The position numbers and the translations under genes are program-made. 47,571 nucleotides of DNA from Rhodocyclaceae bacterium (GTDB lineage: Bacteria > Pseudomonadota > Gammaproteobacteria > Burkholderiales > Rhodocyclaceae). The DNA lies in contig JAOADW010000020.1 in NCBI GenBank assembly GCA_026417115.1, positions 1 to 47,571 on the forward strand. Reading direction: 5' to 3'. Shown one piece after another: positions 10,687 through 38,055 of the stretch (the stretch's first letter is position 1; each line of letters begins with the position of its first letter). The notes beneath the pieces are model-generated. The model saw only the letters and a list, made by a program, of their open reading frames with translations, was not told where the DNA came from and made no database searches.

Positions 10687-10757
10687 CGAGAGGGTGAATC
10701 GTGAGCAGCAGTCTCGGCGAATTGTAAATGTGCGCAAGCGAGCGCGGCGGCTTAATG

Positions 10758-11030: not shown

Positions 11031-11037
11031 GGTCTCC

Positions 11038-12507: not shown

Positions 12508-12518
12508 GTCTCACCTCT

Positions 12519-18965: not shown

Positions 18966-20288
18966 GTGAGCGCCCGCCGGAAAACGCCGCGCATCGGTTT
19001 CGTCTCGCTGGGCTGCCCCAAGGCCGCGGCGGACGCCGAGCTGATCCTGACGCGCCTGCGCGCCGAAGGCTACGAGTTTTCCCCCAGCTATCGCGGCGCC
19101 GATCTCGTGATCGTCAACACCTGCGGCTTCATCGACGCCGCCATCGAGGAATCGCTCGCCGCCATTGGCGAGGCGCTCGATGAAAATGGCAAAGTCATCG
19201 TCACGGGCTGCCTCGGCGCGCGGCCTGAAACGATCCGAGAAAGACACCCGCATGTTCTCGCGATTGCCGGGCCGCACGCGCTCGAAGAAGTGATGTCGCT
19301 CGTCCATGCGCATGCGCCCAAGCCTCACGACCCGTTCGAGGATCTCGTGCCGCCCCAAGGATTGCGCCTCACGCCCAGCCATTATGCCTATCTGAAGATC
19401 GCCGAAGGTTGCAACCATCGCTGCAGCTTCTGCATCATCCCCTCGCTGCGCGGGCCTCTCGCCTCGCGTCCCTTGGCCGAGGTCGTCAAAGAAGCCGAGA
19501 CTTTGGTCAAGGCTGGCGTCAAAGAGCTGATCTTGATCGCGCAAGACACGGCCGCCTATGGCATGGATCTCAAGCACCGCACGGGCTTTCTCCACGGTCG
19601 TCCCGTCAAGACCCGGCTCTATGAGCTCTGCAAGGAGCTCGGCAGCTTGGGAGTCTGGATTCGCCTGCACTATGTGTATCCCTATTCCCACGTCGATGAT
19701 CTTCTGCCTCTGATGGCAGAAGGCAAATTGCTGCCCTATCTCGATGTTCCTTTCCAGCACGCAAGCCCCCGCATCCTGCGCGCCATGAAAAGGCCTGGCG
19801 ACGTCGAGCGCGTGCTGGAGCGCATCGCAGGTTGGCGCAAGGCGGTGCCGAATCTGACCATACGTTCGACCTTCATCACCGGTTTCCCCGGCGAGACGGA
19901 GAGCGACTTCGAAGAGCTGCTCGATTTTTTGGACGAAGCGCGCCTCGATCGTGTCGGCGCATTCGCTTACTCGGCGGTCGCCGGCGCTGCGGCGAACGAG
20001 CTGCCTGGCATGCTGCCCGAAGCCGTGCGGGAAGAACGCAAGGCGCGTCTTTTGCGCCACCAAGAAGAGATTTCGCTTGCGCGCCTGAGCGCCCTCATCG
20101 GTCAGACCATGACCGTGCTCGTCGACGAATGTGACGAGGAGGGCGCGATCGCGCGCACGATGGGCGATGCGCCGGACGTCGATGGCGTGGTCTATGTCCA
20201 AGACGGCCAGGATTTGCGCCCTGGCGAATTCGTCGAAGTCGAGATCACCGACTGCGACGTCCATGACCTCTACGCGCGCTGCAGATGA
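18966..20288 (+). CDS. rimO: Ribosomal protein S12 methylthiotransferase RimO
   Basis: A 440-residue radical-SAM enzyme that methylthiolates an aspartate of ribosomal protein S12. An UPF0004 domain with cluster cysteines ([24 protein letters not shown]) is followed by the radical SAM motif [12 protein letters not shown] and a C-terminal TRAM domain. The motif [10 protein letters not shown] deviates from the usual GCPKNLVDSE. The start is GTG 18966; no ATG is close. It overlaps the next gene by four bases. Confidence 0.93.
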
Positions 20289-21142
20289 AAGCCAAGCTTG
20301 GACTCGTGCTCGGCAGCGGCGCCGCGCGCGGATGGGCGCACATCGGCGCGATTCGAGCGCTTGAAGAAGCGGGCATCGTGCCCGACCTCATCGTCGGCTG
20401 CTCGATCGGAGCGTTCGTCGGCGCAGCCTATGCCGATGGTCAGCTCGACCGGCTCGAGCAATGGGTGACGAATTTGACCTGGCGCGACGTGCTGGGCTTC
20501 CTCGACGTCACGCTCTCCGGCGGCCTGATCAAAGGAGAGAAGCTGATCGAATTCTTCGAGCGCCATTTCACCGACGTCGCGATCGAAGAGCTGCCCAAGC
20601 CCTTCGCCTGTGTCGCCACGGACCTCGAAAACGGCCGTGAAATCTGGTTGCGCGAAGGCTCCACCGCAGCTGCCGTCCGCGCTTCGATCGCGCTGCCGGG
20701 CCTTTTTGCTCCCGTGGAGCGCGAAGGCAGGCTCCTCGTCGATGGCGGTCTCGTCAATCCAGTGCCCGTTTCTCTCGCCCGTGCGATGGGCGCCGAGATC
20801 GTGATCGCCGTCGATCTTTCCGCCGACATCGTGGGACGCGCCCTGCGTGGCAAGAGCGGCGCCGCATCGAGCGGCTGGACGCAAAGGCTACTCACCACGA
20901 TCGGGCTTTCCGATGGCGTGAAGCTGCCTCCCGTCACTTCGGTGCTCGCCACCGCCGTGCATATCATGCAAACGCGCATTGCCCGCAGCCGCCTGGCGGG
21001 CGAGCCTGCCGACGTGCTTTTGCAACCCCGGCTCGCGCGGCTGGCGCTCATGGATTATCACCGCGCCGAAGAGGCGATCGCCGAAGGGCGCGCCGCCGTG
21101 CGCCGCATGCTGCCTGCCATCGAACATGCGCTCTCGCTCTGA
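20285..21142 (+). CDS. Patatin-like phospholipase/esterase (RssA family)
   Basis: A 285-residue cytoplasmic serine hydrolase of the bacterial patatin family. The oxyanion motif [14 protein letters not shown], the nucleophile elbow GCSIGAF and the catalytic [13 protein letters not shown] are all present, so the Ser/Asp dyad is intact. The substrate is unknown; lipid esters are the general family substrate. It overlaps both neighbours (ATGA with rimO; 17 bases with the dehydrogenase). Confidence 0.88.
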
Positions 21143-22532
21143 TTTCATCGCCGAACTTTCCCGCCTCGTGGGCGCGGCACACGTCCTGACCCAGCCGGCG
21201 GATCTCTCGCCCTATTGCACCGATTGGCGCGGACGATACCACGGCGAGGCGCTCGCCGTGGTCCGCCCGGCCAACACCCAGGAAGTCGCCGCCGTCGTCG
21301 CCGCTTGTCACCGCGCCGGCATCGCCATCGTGCCCCAAGGCGGCAACACCGGCCTCGTCGGCGGCGCCACGCCCATCGGTGGCGAAGTCGTGCTCAGTCT
21401 TACGCGCCTGAATCGCATTCGCGCCATCGACGCAGCGAACCATACCCTGATCGCCGAAGCAGGCTGTACGCTCAAGCAGGTGCAAGAGGCTGCCGCGCAA
21501 GCGGGCCGGCTTTTCCCATTGTCCTTGGCCTCAGAAGGCACCGCCACCATCGGCGGCAATCTCGCCACCAATGCCGGCGGCGTGCAAGTGCTGCGCTATG
21601 GCAACGCGCGAGAACTGTGCCTAGGCCTTGAAGTGGTGCTGCCCGACGGCCGCATCTGGAATGGCCTCAAAGGCTTGCGCAAGGACAATACGGGCTACGA
21701 CCTCAAACACCTCTTCATCGGCGCAGAAGGCACCCTGGGCGTCATCACCGCTGCCGTCTTGAAGCTTTTCGCTCCGCCGCGCAGCCAAGCAACTGCCTGG
21801 GTCGCCGTGCCCTCGCCAGCCGCCGCGGTGGCCCTGCTCACCCGCCTGCGCGAAGCGATTGGAGGGCGCATCACGGCCTTCGAACTCATCGGTCAGCCTG
21901 CGCTCGAGCTCGTGCTCAAGCACATCCCTGGCAGTCGCGCACCCTTTTCCACGCCTTCCCCGTGGCACGTCCTCGTCGAGCTTTCCGACACCCTCGCCAC
22001 CGATCTCGCAACGCCACTTGCACACACGCTCACCACCGCTTGTGAAGCCGGCGAGGCGCTCGACGTCGTATTGGCGCAAAACGCCCGTCAGTCCCAGGCC
22101 CTCTGGAGTCTGCGCGAGAACATTTCCGAGGCGCAAAAAATCGAAGGCTTCTCGATCAAGCACGACATCTCGCTACCCGTCTCAGCGCTCCCCGCGTTTC
22201 TTGCCGCCTGCGATGCCGCCCTGAAGCAAGCGTTTCCAGGCGTGCGCATCGTCTGCTTCGGACATCTCGGCGATGGCAATCTCCATTACAACCAGTCGAT
22301 GGAACACGCGCACGACAACGCGGAATTGATGGCTGCCCAGCCCCGCGTCAACCGCCTCGTGCATGACCACGTCGCGCGCTTCTGCGGCTCGATTTCCGCC
22401 GAGCATGGTCTTGGGCAGCTCAAGCGCACCGAAATCCTGCGCTACAAAGAGGCGGTAGAGATTGAGCTGATGCGCAGAATCAAGAAAGCCCTTGATCCCG
22501 AAGGACTGATGAACCCCGGCAAGGTCGTCTAA
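21126..22532 (+). CDS. FAD-linked 2-hydroxyacid dehydrogenase (D-lactate/D-2-hydroxyglutarate type)
   Basis: A 468-residue flavoprotein of the GlcD/Dld/D2HGDH family. The FAD-binding PCMH domain has PQGGNTGLVGGATP and SEGTATIGGNLATNAGG. The C-terminal cap has the metal and substrate residues HLGDGNLHYN and SAEHGLGQLKR. The best fit is D-2-hydroxyglutarate or D-lactate dehydrogenase passing electrons to a quinone or flavoprotein; the sequence does not decide between them. A longer frame extends upstream into the patatin gene, but ATG 21126 gives the family N-terminus. Confidence 0.85.
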   Translation: MRSRSDFIAELSRLVGAAHVLTQPADLSPYCTDWRGRYHGEALAVVRPANTQEVAAVVAACHRAGIAIVPQGGNTGLVGGATPIGGEVVLSLTRLNRIRAIDAANHTLIAEAGCTLKQVQEAAAQAGRLFPLSLASEGTATIGGNLATNAGGVQVLRYGNARELCLGLEVVLPDGRIWNGLKGLRKDNTGYDLKHLFIGAEGTLGVITAAVLKLFAPPRSQATAWVAVPSPAAAVALLTRLREAIGGRITAFELIGQPALELVLKHIPGSRAPFSTPSPWHVLVELSDTLATDLATPLAHTLTTACEAGEALDVVLAQNARQSQALWSLRENISEAQKIEGFSIKHDISLPVSALPAFLAACDAALKQAFPGVRIVCFGHLGDGNLHYNQSMEHAHDNAELMAAQPRVNRLVHDHVARFCGSISAEHGLGQLKRTEILRYKEAVEIELMRRIKKALDPEGLMNPGKVV

Positions 22533-22783
22533 GCGACCAGGACGATCGCATACGCATAATTCATAAACGCTGGGCAAAAATCTTCGCAGCCAAGCAACGA
22601 TCGGCAGTCGTGGCCATGATCGAATCGAGGCTACTTTCGGTTCGTCCTTGCCTCGTCGTCAAGACAAGCTCTTCTCTAAGCGCAGCCTTCGCTTCCGCCG
22701 CAAAACCGCAAAGCGCCTGCGCGATCTTCGCGCTTCTTTGCTGGCCTACCCCTCGGGGGTCAATGCGATTGCTTTGAACGCGC
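22533..22783. other. Intergenic region before the tRNA promoter
   Basis: No convincing gene is seen. A minus-strand open frame ending at 22561 gives a cysteine- and arginine-rich peptide with no recognisable domain, and it overlaps the tRNA promoter and tRNA-Ala. Confidence 0.5.
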
Positions 22784-22811
22784 TTTACACATTCGCGAAA
22801 AACGCTATAAT
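22784..22811 (+). promoter_or_regulatory. Sigma-70 promoter of tRNA-Ala/tRNA-Glu
   Basis: TTTACA (22784-22789) and a perfect TATAAT (22806-22811) are 16 bases apart. Transcription would start about 22818, just before tRNA-Ala at 22825. Confidence 0.85.
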
Positions 22812-22824
22812 GCGCGTCTCTTTC

Positions 22825-22900
<76 letters not shown>

Positions 22901-22909
22901 CGAGACGAC

Positions 22910-22985
22910 GTCCCTATCGTCTAGAGGCCTAGGACATCACCCTTTCACGGTGAGAACCGGGGTTCGAATCCCCGTGGGGACGCCA
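22910..22985 (+). tRNA. tRNA-Glu (anticodon TTC)
   Basis: A 76-base cloverleaf: acceptor GTCCCTA/TGGGGAC, anticodon stem CACCC/GGGTG-type pairing around CTTTCAC (anticodon TTC), T-arm CGGGGTTCGAATCCCCG, ending GCCA. It is nine bases after tRNA-Ala and probably shares its transcript. Confidence 0.97.
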
Positions 22986-23133
22986 GCCGACAAAGCGCCC
23001 GCTCGAAGGCGACACACAGTCTGGCCATGCCGTCGTTCCGCGAGGTGGGCATGCAGGCCACCTCATCGCTCCGCACCCCGCCGCCTTTTCATCCCTTGCG
23101 CACGACTCGCCCTCAAAGGGTTCCATACGTCAT

Positions 23134-23186
23134 AAAAAAAGCCCCATCGCCTGCGCATGTCCGAAGAATGCGTGATGCGAAGGGGC
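23134..23186 (-). terminator. Rho-independent terminator of the cytochrome b/octahaem operon
   Basis: On the minus strand GCCCC-T-TCGC (23186-23177) pairs with GCGA-TGGGGC (23150-23141), with one mismatch and further GCAT/ATGC pairing inside. Seven T residues follow (23140-23134). It lies about 45 bases past the cytochrome b stop. Confidence 0.7.
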
Positions 23187-23189
23187 GAT

Positions 23190-23220
23190 CGCTTGGGTTG
23201 GCGAGTCACTCGCCCAAGCG
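23190..23220. repeat. Long inverted repeat downstream of cytochrome b
   Basis: CGCTTGGG (23190-23197) pairs with CCCAAGCG (23213-23220). An inner dyad GGCGAGT-C-ACTCGCC shares some of the same bases, so two alternative stems are possible. There is no T-tract. It may be an RNA-stabilising 3' hairpin or a pause site before the terminator at 23134-23186. Confidence 0.6.
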
Positions 23221-23228
23221 CGGCGTCC

Positions 23229-23825
23229 TCAATGCACCTCTTCCCAGCCCGTGATCATCGCCTTCAAGTGGGAGAAGACGGTCACACCGGTCGTGATCAG
23301 ATACACATGCACGATCAAGAAGACCAACATGAGAAACGCCCCGATCACGTGCCCTGTCGCCACCCAAGAGAGATCGAGACTCGACAAGCCCCAATGTTCC
23401 CACTGGTCATAGAACAGATAAAGCCAGCCCGTGATCCAGATCAAGGGGCTCACGATCACGAGGATGAACAGATAGGCCAACCGCTGCAAGGGATTGTGCT
23501 TGCGCAGCGTGGTTTGCCGGAAGGGGTGAGGCGCGTTCTTGAAGATGCCCAATAAATAATATTGCAGCATCGCGTCCACCTTTTCCAGCGTGGGGATGTA
23601 TTGTTTCCACTCACCGGTGGTCAGGTGCCAGAAAATCGCGAAGATCCAAAGGCCGACCAAGGTCCAAGCAGCAGTCGTATGGTATTCGACTGCCTTTTCG
23701 AAACCAAAATTCCGATAAGTGCCGTGGATTTCGAAGCCGGTCAGCAACAGGAAGATGATCAGCGCCGCTTGCGACCAATGCCAGAACCGCTCGAACCGCT
23801 TGAAGATATAGATTTTTTCGCTCAT
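23229..23825 (-). CDS. Cytochrome b561-type membrane subunit
   Basis: A 198-residue di-haem b cytochrome of the hydrogenase/thiosulfate-reductase cytochrome b family (PF01292). Four membrane helices lie at about residues 15-32, 50-68, 112-135 and 155-178. Candidate haem-ligating histidines occur in FWHWSQ, EYHTTAAW, IFWHLTTGEW, VATGHVIGA and LIVHVYL. It probably exchanges electrons between the quinone pool and the periplasmic octahaem cytochrome encoded 21 bases upstream on the same strand. Confidence 0.88.
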   Translation of the reverse strand: MSEKIYIFKRFERFWHWSQAALIIFLLLTGFEIHGTYRNFGFEKAVEYHTTAAWTLVGLWIFAIFWHLTTGEWKQYIPTLEKVDAMLQYYLLGIFKNAPHPFRQTTLRKHNPLQRLAYLFILVIVSPLIWITGWLYLFYDQWEHWGLSSLDLSWVATGHVIGAFLMLVFLIVHVYLITTGVTVFSHLKAMITGWEEVH

Positions 23826-23846
23826 GTCACGCTCCTTCGAGATTTC

Positions 23847-25451
23847 TCACTTCTTACGCGAAACGATACGCAGGAGGGCGTGGCCAAGGACACCGAGCAG
23901 AGCCAACAGCGCTAGGGTCCATCCCGCCTTGTCGAGCCATGGCAGCGCATCCCGGCCGGGGAGATAGACGCCTTCGACACCGGCTAAGCGGCCATCCTTG
24001 GCATGGCATTCGGCGCAAGCAAGCGCTTTGTCCTTGGGGGCGACCATGTGGGTAACTGGCCAATACATCTCGGTTTCCACGAAATCGACCTGACCGGAGA
24101 AAGGCGCGCCAGAGGTGCGCATGCCGGTCGCCGCTGCCTTGATCCAATCGAGGTTCTTCCAGTAGCCCGTGTCGTCCTCGCCCGCGGTATGAGGGGTGAT
24201 CAGCGTCTTGTTCACGGGGTCGAAGGGCTGCTTGCCGCGCATGATCTTGAACGGCCAAATCATCGACTTGCCATCGCTCGCCGAGCCGCCGATGCGGTTG
24301 ATCGGCGTCGGCTTGTCGCTTTTCTCGACGGGATCACCAAGCAAGGTATAGGTGATTTCCCCATTGAACCAGCGATATTCGGGCTTGACATTCTCGCCGA
24401 GCACGAAATCGCCTTTATGCGAGGCATAGATCACATGGCCTTTTTCGTCCTTGATTTCGAACTTCTTACCGTCCTTCAGCTTGCCGGCGGTAGACCAATC
24501 CCACACGAGTTTGGTCGGCACGCCTCCGCGAGCGAAAGCAGGGATGTGACAGGTCTGGCATGCCACCTTCTTGGCGTGATGATTGAGCCGTTCGGCGTGC
24601 TTGCTGTCTTCCTTCTTATGGGGCGCATTGCTATGGCAAGCCACGCAGGTCGCGGGGTTGCGGTTTTCTTCCTTGCCCCGTATCAGCGCGCCCTTGTCGT
24701 CTTTCGCCGTGGGTGTATAGCGGCTGCCGGGCACATCATGGCTCGAGGTTTTATGACAGGTCGCGCACGTGAAATCCAAACCCTCGGCGTCCATATGCAC
24801 ATCGATCTCCGCCGTGGGTGCCGCCAGCGAGGAATCCATGTCGCCATGTTTGACGCCATCTCCGCCCCCACCGCGGAAATGGCACGCCCCACAGTTATCC
24901 CGACTCGTCTTGCCGACCTTCTGCGCAACTTTCGTCAAATCGACGGGCTTGATGAATTTGCCCGACCCCGGCGGCAGCTCGAGCGGCTGCCCGACGACTG
25001 GATGGCCCGCAAGTCCAGGCGGCTTTTGATAAGTGCCGGTCGTGTCGTGGCAGACGAGACAATCGACGTTTTCTTCCTTGGTGAAGTCGAAGGTTGCGTC
25101 TTTCCATCCATAACCGACGTGGCAAGCCGTGCAAGCCGGATAGTTGGAAGAGATCGAAATACAGAAATTGTTGAGCACATGCTTCTTGCCCAGCTTTTGG
25201 CCGCTCGCGGGATTGAGAAACTCCCAGGTCCAATGCTTGGTGCGATGCACCTGTTTGGCGGCCTCGGTATGGCAAGAAAGACAGGCTTTCGTGACCTCCG
25301 GGCCAGACTTGAATTCCTGCTGCAATTCCTTGAATTTGCTATGGTCCGCAGTGCTCTTGGCGGAAGCCCCCCAAACGGCCGGCACGTTGGCCGTGAAAAG
25401 CCAAGCAAACGTCAAGATCCCTAACCATCGTGCTGCGGGCTTTCGTTTCAT
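23847..25451 (-). CDS. Octahaem c-type cytochrome, tetrathionate reductase (Otr) family, membrane-anchored
   Basis: A 534-residue protein with an N-terminal signal (residues 1-29) and eight CXXCH sites: CLSCH, CTACH, CLVCH, CGACH, CATCH, CVACH, CQTCH and CAECH. Heme spacing and conserved text (VLNNFCISISSNYPACTACH, MIWPFKIMRGKQPFDP) fit the octahaem tetrathionate reductase family, which reduces tetrathionate in vitro and also nitrite or hydroxylamine. A C-terminal helix (about 508-530, then RKK) anchors it with the haem domain outside. The physiological substrate is not established. The presence of a rhodanese and a YeeE transporter opposite favours a sulfur compound. It is divergently controlled from a promoter with FNR-type boxes. 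Confidence 0.9.
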   Translation of the reverse strand: MKRKPAARWLGILTFAWLFTANVPAVWGASAKSTADHSKFKELQQEFKSGPEVTKACLSCHTEAAKQVHRTKHWTWEFLNPASGQKLGKKHVLNNFCISISSNYPACTACHVGYGWKDATFDFTKEENVDCLVCHDTTGTYQKPPGLAGHPVVGQPLELPPGSGKFIKPVDLTKVAQKVGKTSRDNCGACHFRGGGGDGVKHGDMDSSLAAPTAEIDVHMDAEGLDFTCATCHKTSSHDVPGSRYTPTAKDDKGALIRGKEENRNPATCVACHSNAPHKKEDSKHAERLNHHAKKVACQTCHIPAFARGGVPTKLVWDWSTAGKLKDGKKFEIKDEKGHVIYASHKGDFVLGENVKPEYRWFNGEITYTLLGDPVEKSDKPTPINRIGGSASDGKSMIWPFKIMRGKQPFDPVNKTLITPHTAGEDDTGYWKNLDWIKAAATGMRTSGAPFSGQVDFVETEMYWPVTHMVAPKDKALACAECHAKDGRLAGVEGVYLPGRDALPWLDKAGWTLALLALLGVLGHALLRIVSRKK

Positions 25452-25513
25452 CGCACTCTCTCCCCATGGCTACGAACTTACGCTCAACGATACACCCAAA
25501 AAATTAGCATTTG

Positions 25514-25527
25514 TTGATATAGATCAA
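25514..25527. promoter_or_regulatory. FNR-type box, probably serving the octahaem cytochrome
   Basis: TTGAT-ATAG-ATCAA is a perfect match to the FNR/Anr consensus TTGAT-N4-ATCAA. Its centre is about 70 bases from the octahaem ATG. A minus-strand TATCGT at 25487-25492 lies where a -10 would be if the box is centred at -41.5. Oxygen-limited activation is inferred. Confidence 0.75.
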
Positions 25528-25539
25528 TACTGCATGTCG

Positions 25540-25553
25540 TTGACGTAAATCAA
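25540..25553. promoter_or_regulatory. Second FNR-type box, probably serving the cytochrome c-YeeE operon
   Basis: TTGAC-GTAA-ATCAA has nine of ten FNR consensus bases. Its centre is about 66 bases before the cytochrome c ATG, and a TAAAGT hexamer at 25574-25579 is placed as a -10. The two boxes are 26 bases apart centre to centre. Confidence 0.7.
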
Positions 25554-25611
25554 CATCAGTGTATGCATCAAATCTAAAGTATCAGTCGTCTCAACCGAGA
25601 AGGAGAAGCTC

Positions 25612-26001
25612 ATGAAACCCCGCTTTGCGATGATGTCCCTCGTGCTTGCTTCGGCCCTGACCGCGAGCGCCGCCCATGCCTATGACCCGGATTGGAAACG
25701 TGGGCGCATCTATTACCGTAGCGTCTGCACCTCCTGTCACGTCGCTTCGCCGATCGGACAAATCAACCCGAGCAGCAAGACGAAAGCGGAATGGACGGCC
25801 TATCTCTCCGCCAACAAACATGCCAAGGGCAAAGACACCGTCACCCATTACGTGAGCAAGGAATACCGCGCCCAGATCAAGGGGAGCAACAAGGCAGCAG
25901 AAAAATTCGCCGATGTGCCCGAGCAAGAACTCTTCGAGGACATCAAGGCCTTCCTGCTGCGCGGCGCGAAGGATGGCGAAGCGCCCGCCAGCTGTAGCTA
26001 A
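25612..26001 (+). CDS. Periplasmic monohaem cytochrome c
   Basis: A 129-residue protein with a signal peptide cleaved after about AAHA (residue 23) and one haem site CTSCH at 39-43. The sequence resembles small class I cytochromes but has an unusual lysine-rich middle (SSKTKAEWTAYLSANKHAKG). The sixth ligand could be a Met in the signal-proximal part only, so a His or another residue is more likely in the mature protein. GAGAAGGAGAAG at 25597-25608 is a strong ribosome site. It probably shuttles electrons for the octahaem system. It is first in the plus-strand operon. Confidence 0.85.
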   Translation: MKPRFAMMSLVLASALTASAAHAYDPDWKRGRIYYRSVCTSCHVASPIGQINPSSKTKAEWTAYLSANKHAKGKDTVTHYVSKEYRAQIKGSNKAAEKFADVPEQELFEDIKAFLLRGAKDGEAPASCS

Positions 26002-26103
26002 GGCAGTGGGTAAGAACGCACAAGGGTCTCGCCTTTGCAGGCGCGGGCTCCGCTGCGTTCTTGCCCCTTCATTCCGATCATTCGTAAACAAAAGAGGAAA
26101 CCC

Positions 26104-27342
26104 ATGAGCTCGGAAAAGGCATGGTTGGCTGGCTTCAAGGCCGATTACGAAAAGATCTTCGTCGAGGAATGGTCGCCATACACCGGCGCGATCCTCTTGG
26201 TGTGGGTGATCATCGCCTTGATGGTCAATGGCCTCTTTTGGGGTGTTTTCGGCGGCGTGCGCTATTGGGGAGACCAGTTCAATCACTGGATCGGTCTTGC
26301 TCCCCTCCTCGGCATCGCTCCAGCCGATGAAGGGTGGCTTACCCACCGCATGTCGCTGATGAACATCATGTTGCTGCTGGGCGCCTTTTCCGCCGCATTG
26401 ATTTCGCGCCAGTTCCAGCCCAATCGCCCGCCCAAACTCGAGTTGATCTGGGCTGCCATCGGCGGCACCTTGATGGGTGCGGGCGCTTCGCTGGCGGGAG
26501 GGTGCACGACGGGCGGTTTCTTCAATCCCGTTTTACATTCCTCGCCTGCGGGATGGACGATGGGACTGGGTTTGATCCTCGGCGCCATCGCCGGCCTCAA
26601 ATTCTTGCTCTGGACGTTCGAGCACATCAGTTGGGGAACCGAGCCACCACCGACACTCAACATTCCAGAAAGCGTACGCCGTCTCTTTCCCTGGTTGGGC
26701 TTTGCGATCGTGATCGGCGTCCTCGTCTGGGCAGCGCAATGGTACGCTTCCCCCGACACGGTGCTCGCCACACGCGCCGTGATCGTGATCCTGGGATTCG
26801 CCATCGGCTTCATCATGCACCGCGCGCGGCTGTGCTTCGCGCGCGCCTTCCGCGAACCCTTCATGACTGCCGAAGGCGACATGACCAAGGCCATCCTCCT
26901 GGCACTCGCGATCGGCATACCAGTCGCGGCTTTCCTGTTCGAGAAAAAAGTCATCGACCCTTACATCGCGATCCCGCCGACCTTCTGGATCGGCTCGCTA
27001 GTCGGCGGCATCATCTTCGGCGTCGGCATGGTCTTGGCTGGCGGCTGCGCCTCCGGCTCGCTTTGGCGCATGGGAGAAGGACATCTGAAGCTTTGGGTCG
27101 CCATGTTCTTCTTCGCCTGGATGGGTTCGACGATCGGAGCGATCCTGAAAAAGATCGGGCTCACCGCTCCTGATCCCGACAACGTCGAAAACTTCGAGGT
27201 CACCAAGCTCGGCTACCAGGCCTACTGGCCAGACCTCCTTTCTGGCTGGGGCTGGACCCTGATCGTCGGGGCCCTGTTGCTGCTGCTCTGGTATGCCTTC
27301 GTGCGTTACAACGAGTCAACGGAAAAATTCACCGTCCTATGA
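26104..27342 (+). CDS. YeeE/YedE-family sulfur transporter (two fused repeats)
   Basis: A 412-residue membrane protein with about ten helices of the YeeE/YedE family; characterised members import thiosulfate (TsuA-type) or move sulfur or selenium compounds. The two repeats each carry a conserved Cys loop, AGGCTTGGFF (about residue 138) and AGGCASGSLW (about 318), thought to pass sulfur along the channel. AAGAGGAAACCC before ATG 26104 sets the start; the longer frame is not needed. The neighbouring rhodanese suggests it hands sulfane sulfur to or from the periplasm. Confidence 0.88.
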   Translation: MSSEKAWLAGFKADYEKIFVEEWSPYTGAILLVWVIIALMVNGLFWGVFGGVRYWGDQFNHWIGLAPLLGIAPADEGWLTHRMSLMNIMLLLGAFSAALISRQFQPNRPPKLELIWAAIGGTLMGAGASLAGGCTTGGFFNPVLHSSPAGWTMGLGLILGAIAGLKFLLWTFEHISWGTEPPPTLNIPESVRRLFPWLGFAIVIGVLVWAAQWYASPDTVLATRAVIVILGFAIGFIMHRARLCFARAFREPFMTAEGDMTKAILLALAIGIPVAAFLFEKKVIDPYIAIPPTFWIGSLVGGIIFGVGMVLAGGCASGSLWRMGEGHLKLWVAMFFFAWMGSTIGAILKKIGLTAPDPDNVENFEVTKLGYQAYWPDLLSGWGWTLIVGALLLLLWYAFVRYNESTEKFTVL

Positions 27343-27354
27343 AAGGAGATCGCC

Positions 27355-28518
27355 ATGAGACCGCTATCCCTGCCACTCTTCCTCGTCGCGGCCGCATTCG
27401 TCGCCGCACCGCTTTCGGCGCCGGTTCATGCACAGCCGGCTTCCGCGGCGCAAGCGAAAGAAGGCTGGTATAAGCACATCGTCGATTTCGACTTCGTCAA
27501 GCCACATGCCGAATTGCCGCGCGATGATAAAGCAGCGCTGCTCGTCGATTCCCGACCGGCTGCGCGCCGCTATGACATCGGCCACATTCCTGGCGCCATC
27601 AACATTCCCGACACGCAATTCGAGAAGCTCGCACCGCAGCTTTTACCCGCCGACAAGAACGCCCTGATCATCTTTTACTGCCAGGGTTTCGACTGTGACC
27701 TCTCGCACAAGTCTGCATTCAAGGCAGAGGCCATGGGCTACACGAATGTCAAAGTCTATGCTGCAGGCATACCAGACTGGGAAGCGAAAGGCGAGTTGCT
27801 CTCCGTCAGCACCGCTTATGTCAAAAAACTTTTGGACGAAAAGGCGGATTTCATGCTGATCGACTCACGTCCCGCGCGCACCTTCGAAAAAGGCAGCATT
27901 CCCGGCGCCGTCAACATACCGGACACCCAGTTCGAAAAGATGACCGACAAATTGCCGGCCGACAAGAACAAGATGCTGGTCTTCTTCTGTGGCGGCCTCA
28001 AATGCGATTTGTCCTCGAAATCGGCGCGCAAGGCCAAGGCGCTCGGCTACACCAAAGTGTTCGTCTATGCCGAAGGTTATCCCGCCTGGCAGGCTGCGAC
28101 CGGTGCATCCTCGAGCACGGCTGCGCCGGCTTCCGCACAGCCGACGGCGACAGGTACGGCAGCGTCCAGCGGCGTGATCCCGATCGAGCCCGGCAAGGAA
28201 AAAGGCAGCATCAGCGCCGCCTCTTTCGAGCGCATCCTGAAGGAGAATCCGAACCAAATCGTGATCGTCGACGTGCGCGACGAGAAGGACGTCAAGAAAG
28301 GCACCTTCCCGGGCGCCATCAACATCCCGATCAACGATCTCGAAAAGAAACTCGCCACTTTGCCCAAAGACAAGCCCATCGTCTTCACTTGCGCCACCGG
28401 CGCACGCTCCGGCGAAGCCTATGACACCGTAAAGATGTTGGGCGCAGGGCTGCAGGCCTATTTCCTCGACGCCGAGGTCACCTTCAAGGATGGCGGCTAT
28501 AGCATCAAAGGCCGATAA
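27355..28518 (+). CDS. Periplasmic protein with three rhodanese domains
   Basis: A 387-residue sulfurtransferase-like protein with a signal peptide (cleaved after about PVHA, residue 26). Domain 1 (about 40-145) and domain 2 (about 155-250) are near-duplicates, each with PGAxNIPDTQFEK. Their active loops are Cys109-QGFD-Cys114 and Cys212-GGLK-Cys217. After a Ser/Ala/Thr-rich linker, domain 3 (about 285-385) has the usual loop CATGARS with Cys346. A strong AAAGGAGA site precedes ATG 27355, 12 bases after the transporter. It likely carries persulfide sulfur in the periplasm for the octahaem reductase or the transporter; this is inferred from context. Confidence 0.9.
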   Translation: MRPLSLPLFLVAAAFVAAPLSAPVHAQPASAAQAKEGWYKHIVDFDFVKPHAELPRDDKAALLVDSRPAARRYDIGHIPGAINIPDTQFEKLAPQLLPADKNALIIFYCQGFDCDLSHKSAFKAEAMGYTNVKVYAAGIPDWEAKGELLSVSTAYVKKLLDEKADFMLIDSRPARTFEKGSIPGAVNIPDTQFEKMTDKLPADKNKMLVFFCGGLKCDLSSKSARKAKALGYTKVFVYAEGYPAWQAATGASSSTAAPASAQPTATGTAASSGVIPIEPGKEKGSISAASFERILKENPNQIVIVDVRDEKDVKKGTFPGAINIPINDLEKKLATLPKDKPIVFTCATGARSGEAYDTVKMLGAGLQAYFLDAEVTFKDGGYSIKGR

Positions 28519-28573
28519 ACATAAGCATCCGGCGCATTCCCCAGCGCCGGATGCGGTCACGAGATTCTTCATC

Positions 28574-29023
28574 ATGCCTTTTCCAGACAAAAAAACTTTC
28601 CGGAAAGCGCTCGCCACGCTTGCCTTCTTCGTTGTCATGCCCGCCTATTCCGAAGATCCCAGGCAATTCGTACGCCTGACCCCACAAGCGCAAGAGACCC
28701 TACGGCAGGAAATGCTCGACAACCTGATGGCGCTCGTCGAGATCCTGTCTCTGATCGCTGAAGACAAGTTCAGGGAAGCCGGCATATTGGCCGAAGAGCG
28801 GTTGGGACGCGGCGCCATGGGCAAAAACGCAAGATTGCCATTCGACGCGCGCCCCGGGCCACAGATGCCGGCCGAGATGCATCGCATCGGCATCGAAGGC
28901 CATTTCGCCGCAAGCGAATTCGCGCGCGCTGCGATCGCAGGCGACAAGCAAGGCGCCTTGGCCAAACTTCCGGCCGTCCTAGGCCAATGTGTTGCCTGTC
29001 ACGCCGCCTTCCGCACCCGCTGA
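28574..29023 (+). CDS. Cytochrome c'-like periplasmic protein
   Basis: A 149-residue protein with a signal peptide (to about PAYS, residue 26) and a single C-terminal haem motif CVACHAAFR (Cys139-His143), the signature of cytochrome c' (CXXCHXXFR). The middle is predicted helical, as in the four-helix cytochrome c' fold. Members bind NO or act as electron carriers. ATG 28574 was chosen because upstream codons (KADKHKHPAHSPAP) do not look like a signal peptide. It closes the plus-strand sulfur operon, 55 bases after the rhodanese. Confidence 0.82.
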   Translation: MPFPDKKTFRKALATLAFFVVMPAYSEDPRQFVRLTPQAQETLRQEMLDNLMALVEILSLIAEDKFREAGILAEERLGRGAMGKNARLPFDARPGPQMPAEMHRIGIEGHFAASEFARAAIAGDKQGALAKLPAVLGQCVACHAAFRTR

Positions 29024-29135
29024 TCTTTTCACGCCGTCTTCACCGCCGCCGGCGCCTGCGCCTTTCGTCTCGCCGAGCAGGAAGACGCCGGCGAGCGTAA
29101 GATTCACACCGCTTGCAATCGCGAGGAGGAATGCG

Positions 29136-29429
29136 ATGCATATCGTCATCGTGCATGTCAAAGTCAAGCCCGAATGCGTCGAGGATTTCATCGCCGCGAC
29201 ACGGCGCAATCACGAAGGCTCGCTGACAGAGCCTGGCTGCCGGCGTTTCGACGTCTTGCAGTCGCATGAAGATGCGACGCGCTTCATCCTCTACGAAGCT
29301 TATGCAAGCGCCGAGGACGCCGCCAGACACAAAGAAACAACTCACTACGCCCACTGGCGTGACACGGTGGCGCCCATGATGGCCGAACCTCGCCAGAGCG
29401 AGCTTTGGCAGGGGCTCTTGCCTGCATGA
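29136..29429 (+). CDS. LsrG-like antibiotic-biosynthesis-monooxygenase-fold protein
   Basis: A 97-residue ABM-fold protein. It resembles E. coli LsrG, the phospho-AI-2 processing enzyme, with aligned text such as NHEGSLTEPGCRRFDVLQ and ARHKETTHYAHW. No other lsr genes are present. GAGGAGGA at 29123-29130 gives a strong start at 29136. The gene overlaps the alcohol dehydrogenase by four bases, so the two products probably act on one small oxidised substrate; AI-2 signalling is only one possibility. Confidence 0.85.
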   Translation: MHIVIVHVKVKPECVEDFIAATRRNHEGSLTEPGCRRFDVLQSHEDATRFILYEAYASAEDAARHKETTHYAHWRDTVAPMMAEPRQSELWQGLLPA

Positions 29430-30604
29430 TCTCGGCGTTCTCGTTTTCGCGCTTACCCCGCATCGAATTCGGCGCAGGCGCCTTGGCCAAATTGCCCGCA
29501 ATTGCCGAACGCTATGGGGGGCCTTTGCTTATCGTCTGCGGCGCGAAGAGTTTCCTTGCCTCGCCGTTCGCCGAATCGCTTTTTACCGAGTTTTCGCAGC
29601 GGCATCTGACGTGGGAAATCGTCAAAGTGGATGGCGAACCCACGGTGCGCTTCATCGATGACGCAGTGCGCACCTTGCGCCATACGCCTTTCACGGCCGT
29701 GATCGGTATCGGCGGCGGCTCTGCGCTCGATGCAGCCAAAGCGATCGCCGGCCTTCTGAAGCCCGGCAACTCGATCCTCGATCATCTCGAAGGTGTTGGC
29801 CCCGAGTTACCCTACCGCGGGCCCGCGACTCCTTTGATCGCCGTGCCAACGACAGCGGGCACGGGCTCGGAAGCGACAAAAAACGCCGTGATTGGCGAGG
29901 CGGGCCATTTCAAAAAATCATTTCGCGACGAAAAACTCGTGGCCGAATGGGCCCTCGTCGATCCCAACCTGATGGCCTCCTGCTCACCTGCATGGATCGC
30001 CGCAAACGGCATGGATGCTTTCACGCAGCTCCTCGAAAGCTTCGTCTCGCAGCGTGCGAACCCGCTGACCGATGCTCTTGCCCGCTCAGGCATCATGGCG
30101 ATCAAAGAAGCGTTGCTGCCTTTCTACAAAGACTCTACCGATGCGCGGGCGCGTGAAAAAATGGCCTATGCCGCGCTGCTTTCGGGCATCTGCCTTGCCA
30201 ACGCCGGGCTCGGCGCCGTGCATGGCTTGGCAAGCCCCTTGGGTGCATTTTTCCCCATCCCTCATGGCGTGGTCTGTGGGACGCTCCTCTACGAAGTCAC
30301 GCGCGCCAACATCGCCGCCCTCGAAGCGCGTATGCCCGATTCGCCCGCATTGCCTAAATACGCCGAGATCGGCCGCCGTTTTGCGATGCAAAAAGGCCTC
30401 AATGGCTTCGAAGCCAGGCGCTTTCTACTTTCGGTGCTGGCAAATTGGCAAGATGAACTCGGCCTGCCGCGCTTATCGACGTATGGCATCAGGGCTGCCG
30501 ACATCCCTCGTATCGTCGCGGGCGCACGCGGAACGAGCATGAAAACCAATCCTGTCGAGCTTTCCGATGCCGAACTCACGGAAATCTTGTATCACCGGCT
30601 TTGA
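29426..30604 (+). CDS. Iron-type (group III) alcohol dehydrogenase with altered metal site
   Basis: A 392-residue enzyme of the FucO/iron-containing alcohol dehydrogenase family. The NAD-binding motif GIGGGSALDAAKAIAG is at about residues 94-109, and PTTAGTGSEAT lies at about 141-151. By comparison with FucO the metal ligands should be Asp197, His201, His266 (AVHGLASPLG) and His280 (PIPHGVVCG), but position 201 is Gln (GMDAFTQLLE). A variant metal site or a known Gln subgroup is possible. The start ATGA overlaps the LsrG-like stop. The substrate is unknown. Confidence 0.9.
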   Translation: MISAFSFSRLPRIEFGAGALAKLPAIAERYGGPLLIVCGAKSFLASPFAESLFTEFSQRHLTWEIVKVDGEPTVRFIDDAVRTLRHTPFTAVIGIGGGSALDAAKAIAGLLKPGNSILDHLEGVGPELPYRGPATPLIAVPTTAGTGSEATKNAVIGEAGHFKKSFRDEKLVAEWALVDPNLMASCSPAWIAANGMDAFTQLLESFVSQRANPLTDALARSGIMAIKEALLPFYKDSTDARAREKMAYAALLSGICLANAGLGAVHGLASPLGAFFPIPHGVVCGTLLYEVTRANIAALEARMPDSPALPKYAEIGRRFAMQKGLNGFEARRFLLSVLANWQDELGLPRLSTYGIRAADIPRIVAGARGTSMKTNPVELSDAELTEILYHRL

Positions 30605-30904
30605 GCAACCCCATCGATCACGCTGGTGGCCATAAAATGCAAAGATGGATAACCTGGCAATCCAAGTGCACGAGGCGTGGCGGCGTATCCGTGCGCTAAT
30701 CGACGACGGCGCGTCATTCGGCAAAAGGTCAGGCCACGACACTCACGGGCGCGTGAAGCTTTTTATCGGGAAGGCCCGGCTGGGTCCCTACATTTTGTCC
30801 GACAAGCCGCTCTTCCGCCTCGACCGCCCGCGTGCTCATCGCCGCTGTAACGTTTCGCTTTTCCCGTTCAGCCCATTTTTCACCTGAAACCCGCTTTTTT
30901 TCTG
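30605..30904. other. Gap between alcohol dehydrogenase and SulP
   Basis: No convincing gene. A plus frame at 30645-30887 has no ribosome site and a proline/arginine-rich tail. A weak stem TTCAG/CTGAA (30867-30888) followed by a T-run (30894-30901) might terminate the dehydrogenase transcript just before the SulP start. Confidence 0.4.
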
Positions 30905-33055
30905 ATGCTTTGCCATCCTCTCCTGTTGCGTTGTTTTCCATTTCTTGGTTGGTTTCCCATCAACGGAGCGATCCTGCGTGGAGATCTGGTCGCCGGCATC
31001 ACGGGCGCTCTCGTCCTCGTTCCCAAAGCGATGGCGTATGCGCAGCTCTCCGGGCTGCCTGTCTATTATGGCCTCTATGTCGCCTTGGTGCCCGCGATCA
31101 TCGGCGCCCTTTGGGGGTCATCGAAGCAACTGGCCACGGGCCCGGTGGCGATCATTTCCTTGATGACCGCCGCGGCGATCACGCCTTTCGCCATCCCCTT
31201 CACCGACGAATTCATCGGCCTTGCCTTGCTGCTCGCCCTCCTCGTTGGTGTCATCCAGCTCTCTTTGGGGCTTTTGGGTTTGGGCGCCATCGTCAATTTC
31301 GTTTCTCACCCAGTCATTCTCGGTTTCATGAACGCCGCCGCGATCATCATCGCGCTATCCCAGCTCGACATGCTGCTCGGCATTCCCAAGGGCCGATCCG
31401 ACTCGTTCCTGAAAGACGTCTGGGAAATGATCACCTATCTGCCTTTGACGCATCTGCCGACGCTCATGATGTCGGCATTTGCCCTGGCGCTCATGTTGGC
31501 CCTGAAAAAAATCAAGCCCTTGGCCAAGCCATCGGTATTGATCGCCGTGATCATCACCACGCTCGTCAGCTACTTCATTGGTTTCGAACACAAGACCAAG
31601 GGCACCCTGGATGACATTGCTGACCCTGAAGTGCGCGCGCTCGTGGCGGCCTATTTGCAAACCGACGAACAAATCGCGCTACTGAACAAGGCAATCGCAC
31701 ATAAATTTTCGGCCTTACGCAAGGCCGAGAAAGAAGGTGATCGCCAAACCATCGTTAACCTCGATCATCAGATCGAATTGCTCAAGATCGAGCTTCTCGG
31801 CGCCGAGCAGCAGAATGCCGAACGCATGAAACGCTTGCGGCGTATTCATTTCGTGCGCACGAAAGCAAAGGAAAACGATGCTCCCGCCCTCTTCGTTGCT
31901 GGACAGGTGCCCGCCGACGTCGAACACGACGGTCGAAAATGGCGCATCAAGAAGATCGAAAAAGGCGTATTGTCGCTGACGGGTGGCGGCGAGGTCGTCG
32001 GCAACATCCCCTCGGGCTTGCCTTCTTTTCGCTTACCGACGCTCAAGTGGGATCTCATCCTGCAGCTTTTGCCTGCGGCTTTGATCGTCGCCCTCGTCGC
32101 CTTCATGGAGTCGATTTCCATGGCCAAGGCCATGGCTGCGAAAACCAAGGACAAGATCGATCCTAACCAGGAATTGATCGGGCAAGGGCTCGCGAACATC
32201 GCCGGCTCGTTTTTCCAGTCTTATCCCGCCTGTGGCTCCTTCACCGGCTCGGCGATCAATCTCCAAGCCGGCGCGAAAACCGGCTTCGCCATGGTCTTCA
32301 ACGGCCTGTTCGTCGCCGCCACCCTGCTCTTTCTCACTCCTTATCTCTACCATTTGCCTAAGGCGGTGCTCGCTGTGATCATCCTCATGGCAGTGACGAG
32401 CCTCATCACGCCCGAAGCGCTCAAGCACACCTGGAAGGCGAGTAAGCTCGATGGCCTGGTCGCGCTCGTCACCTTCTGCGCCACGCTCGCCTTCGCGCCG
32501 CATCTGGACAAAGGCATCATGATCGGCGCCGCCCTCGCGATCATCTTGCATCTCTACAACACGATGAAACCGCGTGTCGCAATCCTCGGCCGCATGCCCG
32601 ATGGCACCCTGCGTGATGCGAAAGTGAACAACCTGCCGCCGTCGAAAGTCGTCACAGCAATCCGATTCGATGGCCGCCTCTATTTCGCCAATGTCTCCTA
32701 TTTCGAGGATGCCGTTCTCGAAGCCGTCGCGAGCAATCCAGAAGCACCCTACGTCTTGATCGTCGGCGACGGCATCAACGACATCGACGCCTCCGGCGAA
32801 GAAGTGATCCGTCACCTCGTCGAGCGTCTCAATGAAAACGGCATCGTCGTCCTCTTCTCTGGGCTAAAGAAACAGGTGCTCGATGTCATACATGCGACAG
32901 GATTGTTCGCTAAGATCGGCGCCAAACGCTTCTATGCAACGACTGAACAAGCGCTCGCTGCGATCTATGCCCGCCCGGAGCACAGCGACGAAGACGATCC
33001 CTTGAAGCCGCCGCGGCGTTCGGCTACGCTTTCCTCTGTCGCTCTTCATGACTAA
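30905..33055 (+). CDS. SulP anion transporter with a long charged insertion and STAS domain
   Basis: A 716-residue transporter of the SulP family (sulfate, bicarbonate or other anions). The first half (about residues 10-225) has helices and family motifs such as DLVAGITGALVLVPKAMAYA. The second part resumes at GNIPSGLPSFRLP (about 356) with PACGSFTGSAINLQAGAKT. Between them, residues about 228-355 are a lysine/glutamate-rich stretch (EIALLNKA-type helices, then HFVRTKAKENDAP and a small beta-rich module HDGRKWRIKK) that SulP proteins normally lack. The C-terminal STAS domain is about 570-690. No good ribosome site precedes the ATG. CBS and DASS genes follow. Confidence 0.88.
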   Translation: MLCHPLLLRCFPFLGWFPINGAILRGDLVAGITGALVLVPKAMAYAQLSGLPVYYGLYVALVPAIIGALWGSSKQLATGPVAIISLMTAAAITPFAIPFTDEFIGLALLLALLVGVIQLSLGLLGLGAIVNFVSHPVILGFMNAAAIIIALSQLDMLLGIPKGRSDSFLKDVWEMITYLPLTHLPTLMMSAFALALMLALKKIKPLAKPSVLIAVIITTLVSYFIGFEHKTKGTLDDIADPEVRALVAAYLQTDEQIALLNKAIAHKFSALRKAEKEGDRQTIVNLDHQIELLKIELLGAEQQNAERMKRLRRIHFVRTKAKENDAPALFVAGQVPADVEHDGRKWRIKKIEKGVLSLTGGGEVVGNIPSGLPSFRLPTLKWDLILQLLPAALIVALVAFMESISMAKAMAAKTKDKIDPNQELIGQGLANIAGSFFQSYPACGSFTGSAINLQAGAKTGFAMVFNGLFVAATLLFLTPYLYHLPKAVLAVIILMAVTSLITPEALKHTWKASKLDGLVALVTFCATLAFAPHLDKGIMIGAALAIILHLYNTMKPRVAILGRMPDGTLRDAKVNNLPPSKVVTAIRFDGRLYFANVSYFEDAVLEAVASNPEAPYVLIVGDGINDIDASGEEVIRHLVERLNENGIVVLFSGLKKQVLDVIHATGLFAKIGAKRFYATTEQALAAIYARPEHSDEDDPLKPPRRSATLSSVALHD

Positions 33056-33074
33056 CCGTGCCAAGGAGAAGCCC

Positions 33075-33605
33075 ATGTCCATTTCTGGAATCGTGCGTGA
33101 TCTGATGATCCCGCTGGGAAAGTTCCCGCACGTAGGGGAATCCGCAACCTTGCGCGACGCCTTCGCGATGTTGCATTTGATGCCGAGCGAAAAAGGCGAC
33201 ATGTTCCGCAACGTCGTCGTGCTCGATGATCAAGGACACTTTTTGGGATTGCTCAGTCTCAAAAACATGTTGCTGGCGCTGATGCCGGACTATTTACGCC
33301 CTACGAAAGGCGTATACCAAGGCGCCCATGACGACATCAGCGCCCTGGCGCTTTTGTGGCAGGAGGATTGCCTCGAACATTGCCATCGTGCCCACACCAT
33401 CCGCGTCCGCGACCATCTCCAGGTTGTCGGAGAACACGTCACCCCCCATGAGCCACTGACGCGCGCGCTTTATCTTTTTGCCACGACTCCCCACTATTTG
33501 CTCCCCGTCATTGAAAACAAACGTCTCATCGGCATGCTGCGTTTGGTCGATGCCTTCGACGAAATCATGATCGAGGTTCTGAGTGAAAGGCCCAGAAATG
33601 AGTGA
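33075..33605 (+). CDS. CBS-domain protein
   Basis: A 176-residue protein with two CBS domains, IVRDLMIPLGKFPHV (about residues 5-70) and TIRVRDHLQVVGEHVT (about 110-175), which together could bind adenine nucleotides. No enzyme or channel domain is attached. AAGGAGAAG at 33061-33069 supports ATG 33075 over ATG 33048. It lies between two anion transporters and overlaps the next gene, so it may sense cell energy state and regulate one of them; inference. Confidence 0.85.
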   Translation: MSISGIVRDLMIPLGKFPHVGESATLRDAFAMLHLMPSEKGDMFRNVVVLDDQGHFLGLLSLKNMLLALMPDYLRPTKGVYQGAHDDISALALLWQEDCLEHCHRAHTIRVRDHLQVVGEHVTPHEPLTRALYLFATTPHYLLPVIENKRLIGMLRLVDAFDEIMIEVLSERPRNE

Positions 33606-35073: not shown

Positions 35074-35209
35074 GAGCCCTCATTTGTCGTTTGCATACCC
35101 GTGCAATCTGCAACACCCGATGCTCGGCAGCAGGCGAAATCTTTTTTTAATTTTCTTTATAAACAATTGACTATCAGCACAACCCTGGCGGCACGCCTCC
35201 TGCAAAGAC

Positions 35210-35223
35210 AGGACACTTGTCCT
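35210..35223. promoter_or_regulatory. 14-bp dyad upstream of the small ORF and SulP-USP gene
   Basis: AGGACA (35210-35215), CT, TGTCCT (35218-35223) is a perfect dyad 16 bases before the small ORF. It follows an AT-rich stretch (35140-35170, with TATAAA at 35159-35164) likely to contain the promoter. Operator or hairpin cannot be told apart. Confidence 0.4.
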
Positions 35224-35239
35224 CAAAAAGGATGCTGCC

Positions 35240-35440
35240 ATGCCTGGCTTCCTTTACGAACTCTTGCGCGCACTCACCCTGCAGGAAGGGACCTTTAGCG
35301 AATTGTTCTCATCGCGACGCAAGTATCATTTATTGCAAAAAGAATGGTACGACTCTCTCCCGCAATCCGACGAGATGGGCGCTCAAGCTTGGCCCCTCGT
35401 CGATATCGTCCGCCTTCTTGCCGATGAACCCGCTTACTAA
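35240..35440 (+). CDS. Small hypothetical protein coupled to SulP-USP
   Basis: A 66-residue soluble, mostly helical peptide with no family recognised (begins MPGFLYELLRALTLQEGTFS). AAAAAGGA at 35225-35232 is a fair ribosome site, and the last 17 bases overlap the start of the transporter, suggesting translational coupling. It may be a genuine small partner or only a leader peptide. Confidence 0.5.
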   Translation: MPGFLYELLRALTLQEGTFSELFSSRRKYHLLQKEWYDSLPQSDEMGAQAWPLVDIVRLLADEPAY

Positions 35441-38009: not shown

Positions 38010-38055
38010 ACCAGCAATCGGGTACACTTGCAGAGAATGACTTGCGCTCTCGGCT

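Follow-up and report, generated by a model that had tools for sequence, protein, structure and literature searches.

A gene cluster from a Rhodocyclaceae bacterium (assembly GCA_026417115.1, contig JAOADW010000020.1) groups the gene for an octahaem cytochrome, a member of the tetrathionate reductase family, with genes for putative sulfur-transfer proteins, and three of its members were found in related genomes only where the octahaem cytochrome was also present. The window, meaning the entire stretch of DNA analysed, is one whole contig of 47,571 bp from a host genome of 2.27 Mb in 62 contigs with a completeness of 87. Within it, genes for the octahaem cytochrome (Otr) and a membrane cytochrome b (CYTB) face a divergent set encoding a small cytochrome c (CYC), a YeeE/YedE-family transporter (YEE) and a secreted triple rhodanese (RHD). 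We consider it about an even bet that these five core genes form one module, which would handle sulfane sulfur in the periplasm and then transfer it to the cytoplasm. The gene identities, the strict co-occurrence in 150 relatives, the conserved catalytic residues and the association with Dsr and Sox genes were seen directly. From these we infer the substrate, the directions of electron flow and of Dsr, the order of sulfur transfer and the role of CYC.

Co-occurrence and gene neighbourhood

The sample of relatives comprised 150 genomes, 38 with a TIGR04315 match over cut-off and 112 without. At thresholds of at least 388 bits for RHD and E-values of 1e-100 or better for YEE and 1e-12 or better for CYC, the three partners were detected in 26, 29 and 27 genomes, respectively. 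Every one of these was among the 38 with Otr, and none of the three was found at these thresholds in the 112 Otr-less genomes. Three RHD-like matches of 157-170 bits (G007, G013 and G015), of which G013 is Otr-less, were set aside as paralogues. All three partners were present together in 21 genomes, and 32 of the 38 Otr genomes had at least one. When genomes were grouped by genus, a grouping made by hand that gave 127 genera as against 123 by tool, RHD, YEE and CYC occupied 13, 14 and 15 genera, all within the 21 that contain Otr; the same-genus genomes G003 and G013 lacked both Otr and, at the set thresholds, all three partners. A sample of 398 genomes across the phylum contained 45 with Otr over cut-off; RHD, at E 1e-50 or better, appeared in four of the 398, all with Otr, one being the window's own genome and one (G383) a distant match of 190 bits. 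A chance neighbourhood was considered as an explanation and rejected on the strict co-occurrence of CYC, YEE and RHD with Otr among the 150 genomes.

Physical linkage was followed in 47 neighbourhoods of relatives holding 48 Otr genes. CYTB immediately followed Otr on the downstream side in 46, the exceptions (L035 and L052) lying at contig ends, and at least one of CYC, YEE and RHD lay within seven genes of Otr in 27, so that the expectation of conserved neighbours rather than scattered genes holds for part of the Otr loci. A set of named genomes was assembled from the best 80 of 563 confirmed Otr stretches plus two plasmid loci. In these 82 loci CYTB adjoined Otr in 77, with Otr reaching the contig end in the other five, and CYC, YEE or RHD lay near Otr in 23. 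The latter number rises to 29 if six weak matches that we did not take as members are counted (rhodanese matches at 30-32% in L097, L102, L104, L106 and L107, and a YeeE match at 33% in L120). Named loci with all three partners include those of a Sulfuritalea metagenome-assembled genome (MAG; L082), a Thiobacillus denitrificans MAG, and Ideonella sp. A 288 (L081) and Magnetospirillum sp. UT-4 (L094), whose records carry no MAG label; in Aromatoleum toluclasticum and Azoarcus sp. Aa7, CYC and RHD were near Otr and YEE was not nearby. Gene orders vary from the divergent arrangement to CYC-YEE-RHD behind CYTB and to CYC-RHD before Otr, and because they differ between loci, the linkage survived or re-formed through rearrangement.

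An Otr tree of 128 sequences, built by a quick method with SH-aLRT support, placed 46 of the 50 rows labelled with a nearby CYC, YEE or RHD in a single 61-row branch (support 96); the partner genes thus largely track the Otr lineage. Another branch, with 30 rows and a support of 92, consists of all 28 rows labelled with an upstream DUF302 gene and two with partners; others have CYTB alone. The DUF302 (PF03625) protein is encoded directly upstream of Otr in L034, L057, L061, L066, L070 and others, and constitutes a second conserved Otr partner. Yet another Otr branch is represented by L104 and L107, where positions ~10500-14500 hold otr, cytb, a protein that reads as porin-like from its sequence, a small secreted protein and a divergent rhodanese, a different pairing of Otr with a rhodanese.

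A plasmid search for Otr returned five records, four from Paracoccus and one from Photobacterium. Two of these five loci were examined; both had Otr and a cytochrome b match, with no match to CYC, YEE or RHD. At one of them, on a Paracoccus ferrooxidans plasmid (L160), the cytochrome b match beside Otr (10538-11500) is in two pieces with no gene listed, the gene table being incomplete, and may be broken or misread.

The encoded proteins and their control region

All six genes that the first-pass annotation had placed in this part of the window, the five core genes and one for a cytochrome c'-like protein, lie at the positions it gave. Otr (23,847-25,451, minus strand) scores 643.4 bits against TIGR04315, with a cut-off of 375, and aligns over residues 43-489 with the Otr structure 1SP3 (E 1.8e-114). 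Like that protein it has eight CXXCH motifs, together with counterparts of the lysine ligand and of the aspartate and cysteine at the active haem: C97, D198 and K201 align with Cys64, Asp150 and Lys153 of 1SP3, the last of which we take to be the active-haem ligand and the other two to lie near that haem. C97 and K201 are invariant, and D198 is kept in at least 90%, in 23 Otr rows (the window protein and 22 relatives). What distinguishes these 23 proteins from 1SP3 is a hydrophobic C-terminal helix, at about residues 512-530 in the window protein. The helix agrees with the earlier description of a membrane-anchored Otr, and the kept residues with a putative Lys-ligated active haem. Within the membrane helix, H524 is invariant in all 23 rows and possibly lies near a haem b of CYTB.

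CYTB (23,229-23,825, minus strand) is a b561-type (Ni_hydr_CYTB) membrane cytochrome b that matches PF01292 at 94.8 bits (cut-off 30.1). Its best NCBIfam matches all fell below cut-off, the highest being the PhsC-type thiosulfate reductase cytochrome b (NF011582; 116.7 versus 204 bits). We presume that CYTB is the quinol-interacting partner of Otr. Shewanella Otr, according to the accessible text of one report, interacts with the periplasmic tetrahaem protein STC, which is fed by CymA (PMC4484225); the window Otr differs in being encoded with its own cytochrome b.

CYC (25,612-26,001, plus strand) is a small periplasmic monohaem cytochrome with one CXXCH and a Pfam match that is sub-threshold only. 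The mature window protein contains no methionine, which excludes a Met-ligated haem. Its penultimate residue, C128, is invariant in 22 of 22 rows of alignment A2, from which L050 (cut by a contig end) and L056 were left out, and the C-terminal end follows the pattern (A/S)xC(S/N/Q), which may be likened to the cysteine-bearing C-terminal arms found in SoxY and DsrC.

YEE (26,104-27,342, plus strand) matches PF04143 at 156.9 bits (cut-off 27). It belongs to the same YeeE family as TsuA (PDB 6leo) and SoxT1A, the latter shown, in the part of the report available, to import sulfur for cytoplasmic oxidation (PMC11582611), and shares three conserved cysteines with them. C134, C244 and C315 are invariant in 25 rows and align with TsuA chain positions 293, 22 and 91, the two halves of the protein matching TsuA in swapped order. 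YEE also departs from TsuA in its NCBIfam scores, which are below cut-off throughout (102.6 of 400 and 75.3 of 645 bits for TsuA, with YedE/FdhT best at 119.5 of 350), and in its surroundings, since no gene for a TsuB (TusA-like) partner adjoins it and its neighbours are CYC and RHD.

RHD (27,355-28,518, plus strand) is a secreted protein with three rhodanese domains (three PF00581 stretches, 180.1 bits). Domains 1 and 2 carry a CX4C motif (C109/C114 and C212/C217) and domain 3 the usual single-cysteine loop (C346); none of the five cysteines varies across 26 rows. From what is known of rhodanese loops, a paired cysteine would allow a persulfide to resolve to a disulfide.

The sixth gene (28,571-29,023, plus strand) encodes a monohaem protein with a C-terminal CVACH motif. 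It scores 20.0 bits against PF01322, under the cut-off of 26.5, so the name cytochrome c' is tentative; a signal-like start at 28,571 is more likely than the listed open reading frame start at 28,490. The gene directly follows RHD in L198 as well, and lies ~15-20 kb from dsrA in three genomes (G007, G009 and G010). Co-occurrence of all six genes, as first proposed, stands for Otr, CYTB and the three partners, the last of which were found only in Otr genomes, but fails for the c'-like gene: it was present in 42 of the 150 relatives, 25 of the 38 with Otr and 17 of the 112 without. On these last genomes we rejected it as a core member.

The 160-bp divergent gap between otr and cyc (25,452-25,611) contains two FNR-like palindromes, TTGATATAGATCAA at 25,514-25,527 with no mismatch and TTGACGTAAATCAA at 25,540-25,553 with one. 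The whole window has six FNR-like sites with at most one mismatch, against 1.13 expected. Among 48 upstream stretches (410 bp) of relatives, such sites occurred in seven, where the remainder of the loci would predict ~0.6, and perfect sites in two (~0.14 expected). Other intergenic gaps provide a fairer control, in a count where a shared divergent gap can enter twice, for otr and for cyc, as those of L040 and L050 did. By this measure the enrichment was weak, sites with no more than one mismatch being present in 6 of 66 module gaps and 9 of 218 others (p 0.11); at two mismatches the numbers were 18 of 66 and 27 of 218 (p 0.005). The close relatives L040, L042 and L043, which share the divergent order, have no site with at most one mismatch. 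The first-pass annotation had described the cluster as FNR-linked. Its good putative boxes in the window gap remain, and oxygen control may operate in this genome, judging by these palindromes, but conservation is weak, and this weakens the case for an FNR box as a fixed or defining trait of the module. A PAS sigma-54 activator gene recurs close to Otr at L059 (11022-12314) and at L037, L055, L075 and L076, and is a candidate regulator of otr.

Beyond the module, 29,136-30,604 encodes an LsrG-like ABM protein and an iron-containing alcohol dehydrogenase; the latter recurs close to Otr at the loci of six relatives (L035, L044, L062, L065, L071 and L072). Farther downstream, the same strand encodes two SulP-type permeases, of which the latter carries Usp domains, and a member of the Na/sulfate symporter family (30,905-33,055, 33,583-35,073 and 35,217-38,009). 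A SulP gene also adjoins the module in L078 (68% identity) and lies upstream of it in L064 (57%).

A proposed sulfur route and its alternatives

The host genome (G000) contains SoxB, NosZ and DsrA. Among the 150 relatives DsrA passed its cut-off in 28 of the 38 Otr genomes and in 17 of the 112 without Otr; counting fragments raises these numbers to 31 and 18 (p 3.7e-13). The fragments come from G014, G019, G088 and G104 and are included only where stated. SoxB was found in 30 of 38 Otr genomes and 48 of 112 others, with G015, whose SoxB is in two pieces, neither noted over cut-off, scored as lacking it. DsrA (with fragments) was present in 29 of the 32 genomes having any of CYC, YEE and RHD. 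Within the Otr genomes it accompanied YEE, occurring in 28 of 29 genomes with YEE and three of nine without when fragments are counted (p 2e-4), and in 25 of 29 and three of nine when they are not (p 0.005). By genus the corresponding numbers were 13 of 14 and one of seven (p 9e-4). Genes for sulfur oxidation also lie close to RHD copies elsewhere. In L192 (G086) and L193 (G019), a second copy follows soxX-soxA-soxY-soxZ and a gene for a monohaem protein; the four Sox proteins all exceed NCBIfam cut-offs at both loci, and any relationship of the monohaem protein to the window c'-like protein is distant. In L195 an RHD copy and a gene whose product has flavocytochrome c sulfide dehydrogenase domains are ~2.6 kb apart.

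These data suggest the following route. Electrons from quinol would pass through CYTB to the membrane-anchored Otr, where the Lys-ligated haem and the neighbouring cysteine would cleave S-S bonds reductively in a polythionate or in carrier-bound sulfane sulfur. RHD would take up the sulfane sulfur released, YEE would move sulfur across the membrane as thiosulfate or sulfane, and a cytoplasmic reverse-Dsr pathway would oxidise what is imported, the reverse-type direction being suggested by the presence of Sox in the hosts. CYC would be an electron carrier of the periplasm dedicated to this route, with a C-terminal cysteine that may bind sulfur as well. A more specific version of this route, to which we assign a small probability, is that the Otr of this clade acts not on free tetrathionate but reductively frees sulfane sulfur from protein carriers, with CX4C RHD and CYC forming a persulfide relay and quinol electrons gating the supply through YEE to reverse Dsr. 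In that case CYC would combine the functions of a cytochrome and a sulfur carrier.

By analogy, the closest parallel that we found described is in Desulfurivibrio dismutans, in which PsrABC, a secreted three-rhodanese protein and YeeE/YedE are proposed to link the periplasm to cytoplasmic Dsr (PMC12142623). As far as the accessible text of that report goes, the systems have in common a periplasmic reductase, a triple rhodanese, YeeE and a proposed flow of sulfur to cytoplasmic oxidation; they differ in that the reductase there is PsrABC, in a sulfur-disproportionating organism, and here an octahaem cytochrome with a cytochrome b and a monohaem cytochrome. In Dethiobacter alkaliphilus, octahaem SirA/Otr-like genes are likewise clustered with those for rhodanese proteins, and the cytochrome is up with thiosulfate in the type strain (PMC10376724). 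Its cytochromes are 20-23% identical to Otr/SirA, however, and neither YeeE nor such a cytochrome b is mentioned in the available portion of that paper. Lucinid symbionts have otr beside divergent soxY/soxZ (PMC11237559), again placing Otr next to a periplasmic sulfur carrier in a sulfur oxidiser; the carrier there is SoxY, and the part of the article consulted mentions neither YeeE nor a triple rhodanese with otr. We found no description of an operon of Otr, cytochrome b, YeeE and triple rhodanese in the open-access paper library searched, preprints being outside scope, in agreement with the first impression that no characterised operon has exactly this content.

Several observations weigh against a module that supplies Dsr. 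As many as 21 of the 48 Otr genes in the neighbourhoods examined have none of CYC, YEE and RHD within seven genes. Within the 38 Otr genomes a link between RHD and DsrA was not found (p 0.18), and that between CYC and DsrA was weak (p 0.014 with fragments, 0.12 without). When the YEE-DsrA association was reduced to five phylogenetically independent pairs, nearly every one of 200 pairings gave two to three agreeing pairs and no opposing one, and the sign test was not significant. This comparison took in 36 of the 38 Otr genomes, G008 and G082 being absent, seemingly since their Otr rows duplicated named loci. Relatedness thus weakens the association, which reflects few independent events. Moreover, DsrA without Otr occurs in 17 genomes over cut-off and in one as a fragment, G003 and G013 of the same genus among them, so that Dsr does not depend on the module, and G042, G053 and G061 carry some or all of the partners without DsrA.

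The electron path would be the same if the cluster served terminal sulfur respiration, with quinol, CYTB and Otr reducing tetrathionate or polysulfide as an anoxic acceptor and RHD and YEE helping to assimilate the product. The family name of Otr and its kinship with 1SP3 accord with this, as do the nearest match of CYTB to a PhsC-type cytochrome b, sub-cut-off as it is, and the FNR-like boxes, both those in the window and those in the seven upstream stretches. Against other gaps the enrichment of the boxes is weak, as described above, and the hosts mostly have Sox and Dsr genes. It is mainly because YEE follows DsrA that we favour the feeding of sulfur oxidation and regard plain respiration as unlikely. 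A sulfur-respiration system had been the first proposal for the cluster; the strict co-occurrence upholds a sulfur-linked functional unit, and the host genes speak against respiration as it was worded.

Alternatively, Otr could reduce nitrite, hydroxylamine or NO in denitrifiers, the sulfur genes adjoining it for another reason. Shewanella Otr reduces nitrite and hydroxylamine, according to the accessible text on that enzyme (PMC4484225). NosZ is present in 26 of 38 Otr genomes versus 32 of 112 others and in all six Otr genomes without CYC, YEE or RHD, and on the Paracoccus plasmid locus L160 a nitrate reductase alpha gene lies ~8 kb from Otr. FNR-like boxes also suit a DNR-type regulator. Set against this, no nitrogen-oxide enzyme was found among the scanned window genes (18,966-38,607), genomes with all three partners show no clear enrichment of NosZ (11 of 21, p 0.13), and CYC, YEE and RHD were never found without Otr in the 150 genomes, unlike chance neighbours. 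Such a main role for this Otr clade is weakened accordingly, and we consider it distinctly unlikely.

The prevalence of Sox and Dsr genes in the hosts, and the RHD copy behind a sox operon, could also be read in the oxidative direction, in which Otr would oxidise thiosulfate, sulfide or sulfane sulfur and pass electrons through CYTB to quinone as a quinone-linked sulfur dehydrogenase. Otr, however, has been characterised as a reductase in the available part of the work on it (PMC4484225), and SoxB already offers an oxidative route in 26 of the 29 YEE-bearing Otr genomes. For thiosulfate oxidation to tetrathionate with ubiquinone, the potentials are unfavourable. We judge the oxidative direction very improbable. 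That the set reduces and imports a selenium oxyanion is hardly credible: rhodaneses can carry selenium and YEE scores higher against YedE/FdhT than against TsuA, but both matches are far under their cut-offs and the context is one of sox and dsr.

Meaning for the Otr family

Otr-family cytochromes, over the family cut-off in 45 of the 398 genomes sampled across the phylum, have competing candidate roles in cells, with tetrathionate, nitrite or hydroxylamine as the substrate. For the Rhodocyclaceae-type Otr, a concrete sulfur setting and a testable question now come from the transporter, sulfur carrier and cytochrome that strictly co-occur with it. The probable task of the module is to break down sulfur compounds on the outer side of the cell membrane and to take the sulfur inside for oxidation, which is a possible job for this enzyme family. 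If this is true, sulfur oxidation is supplied by a periplasmic step that consumes quinol, and the labels 'tetrathionate reductase' or 'nitrite reductase' for this Otr clade would change.

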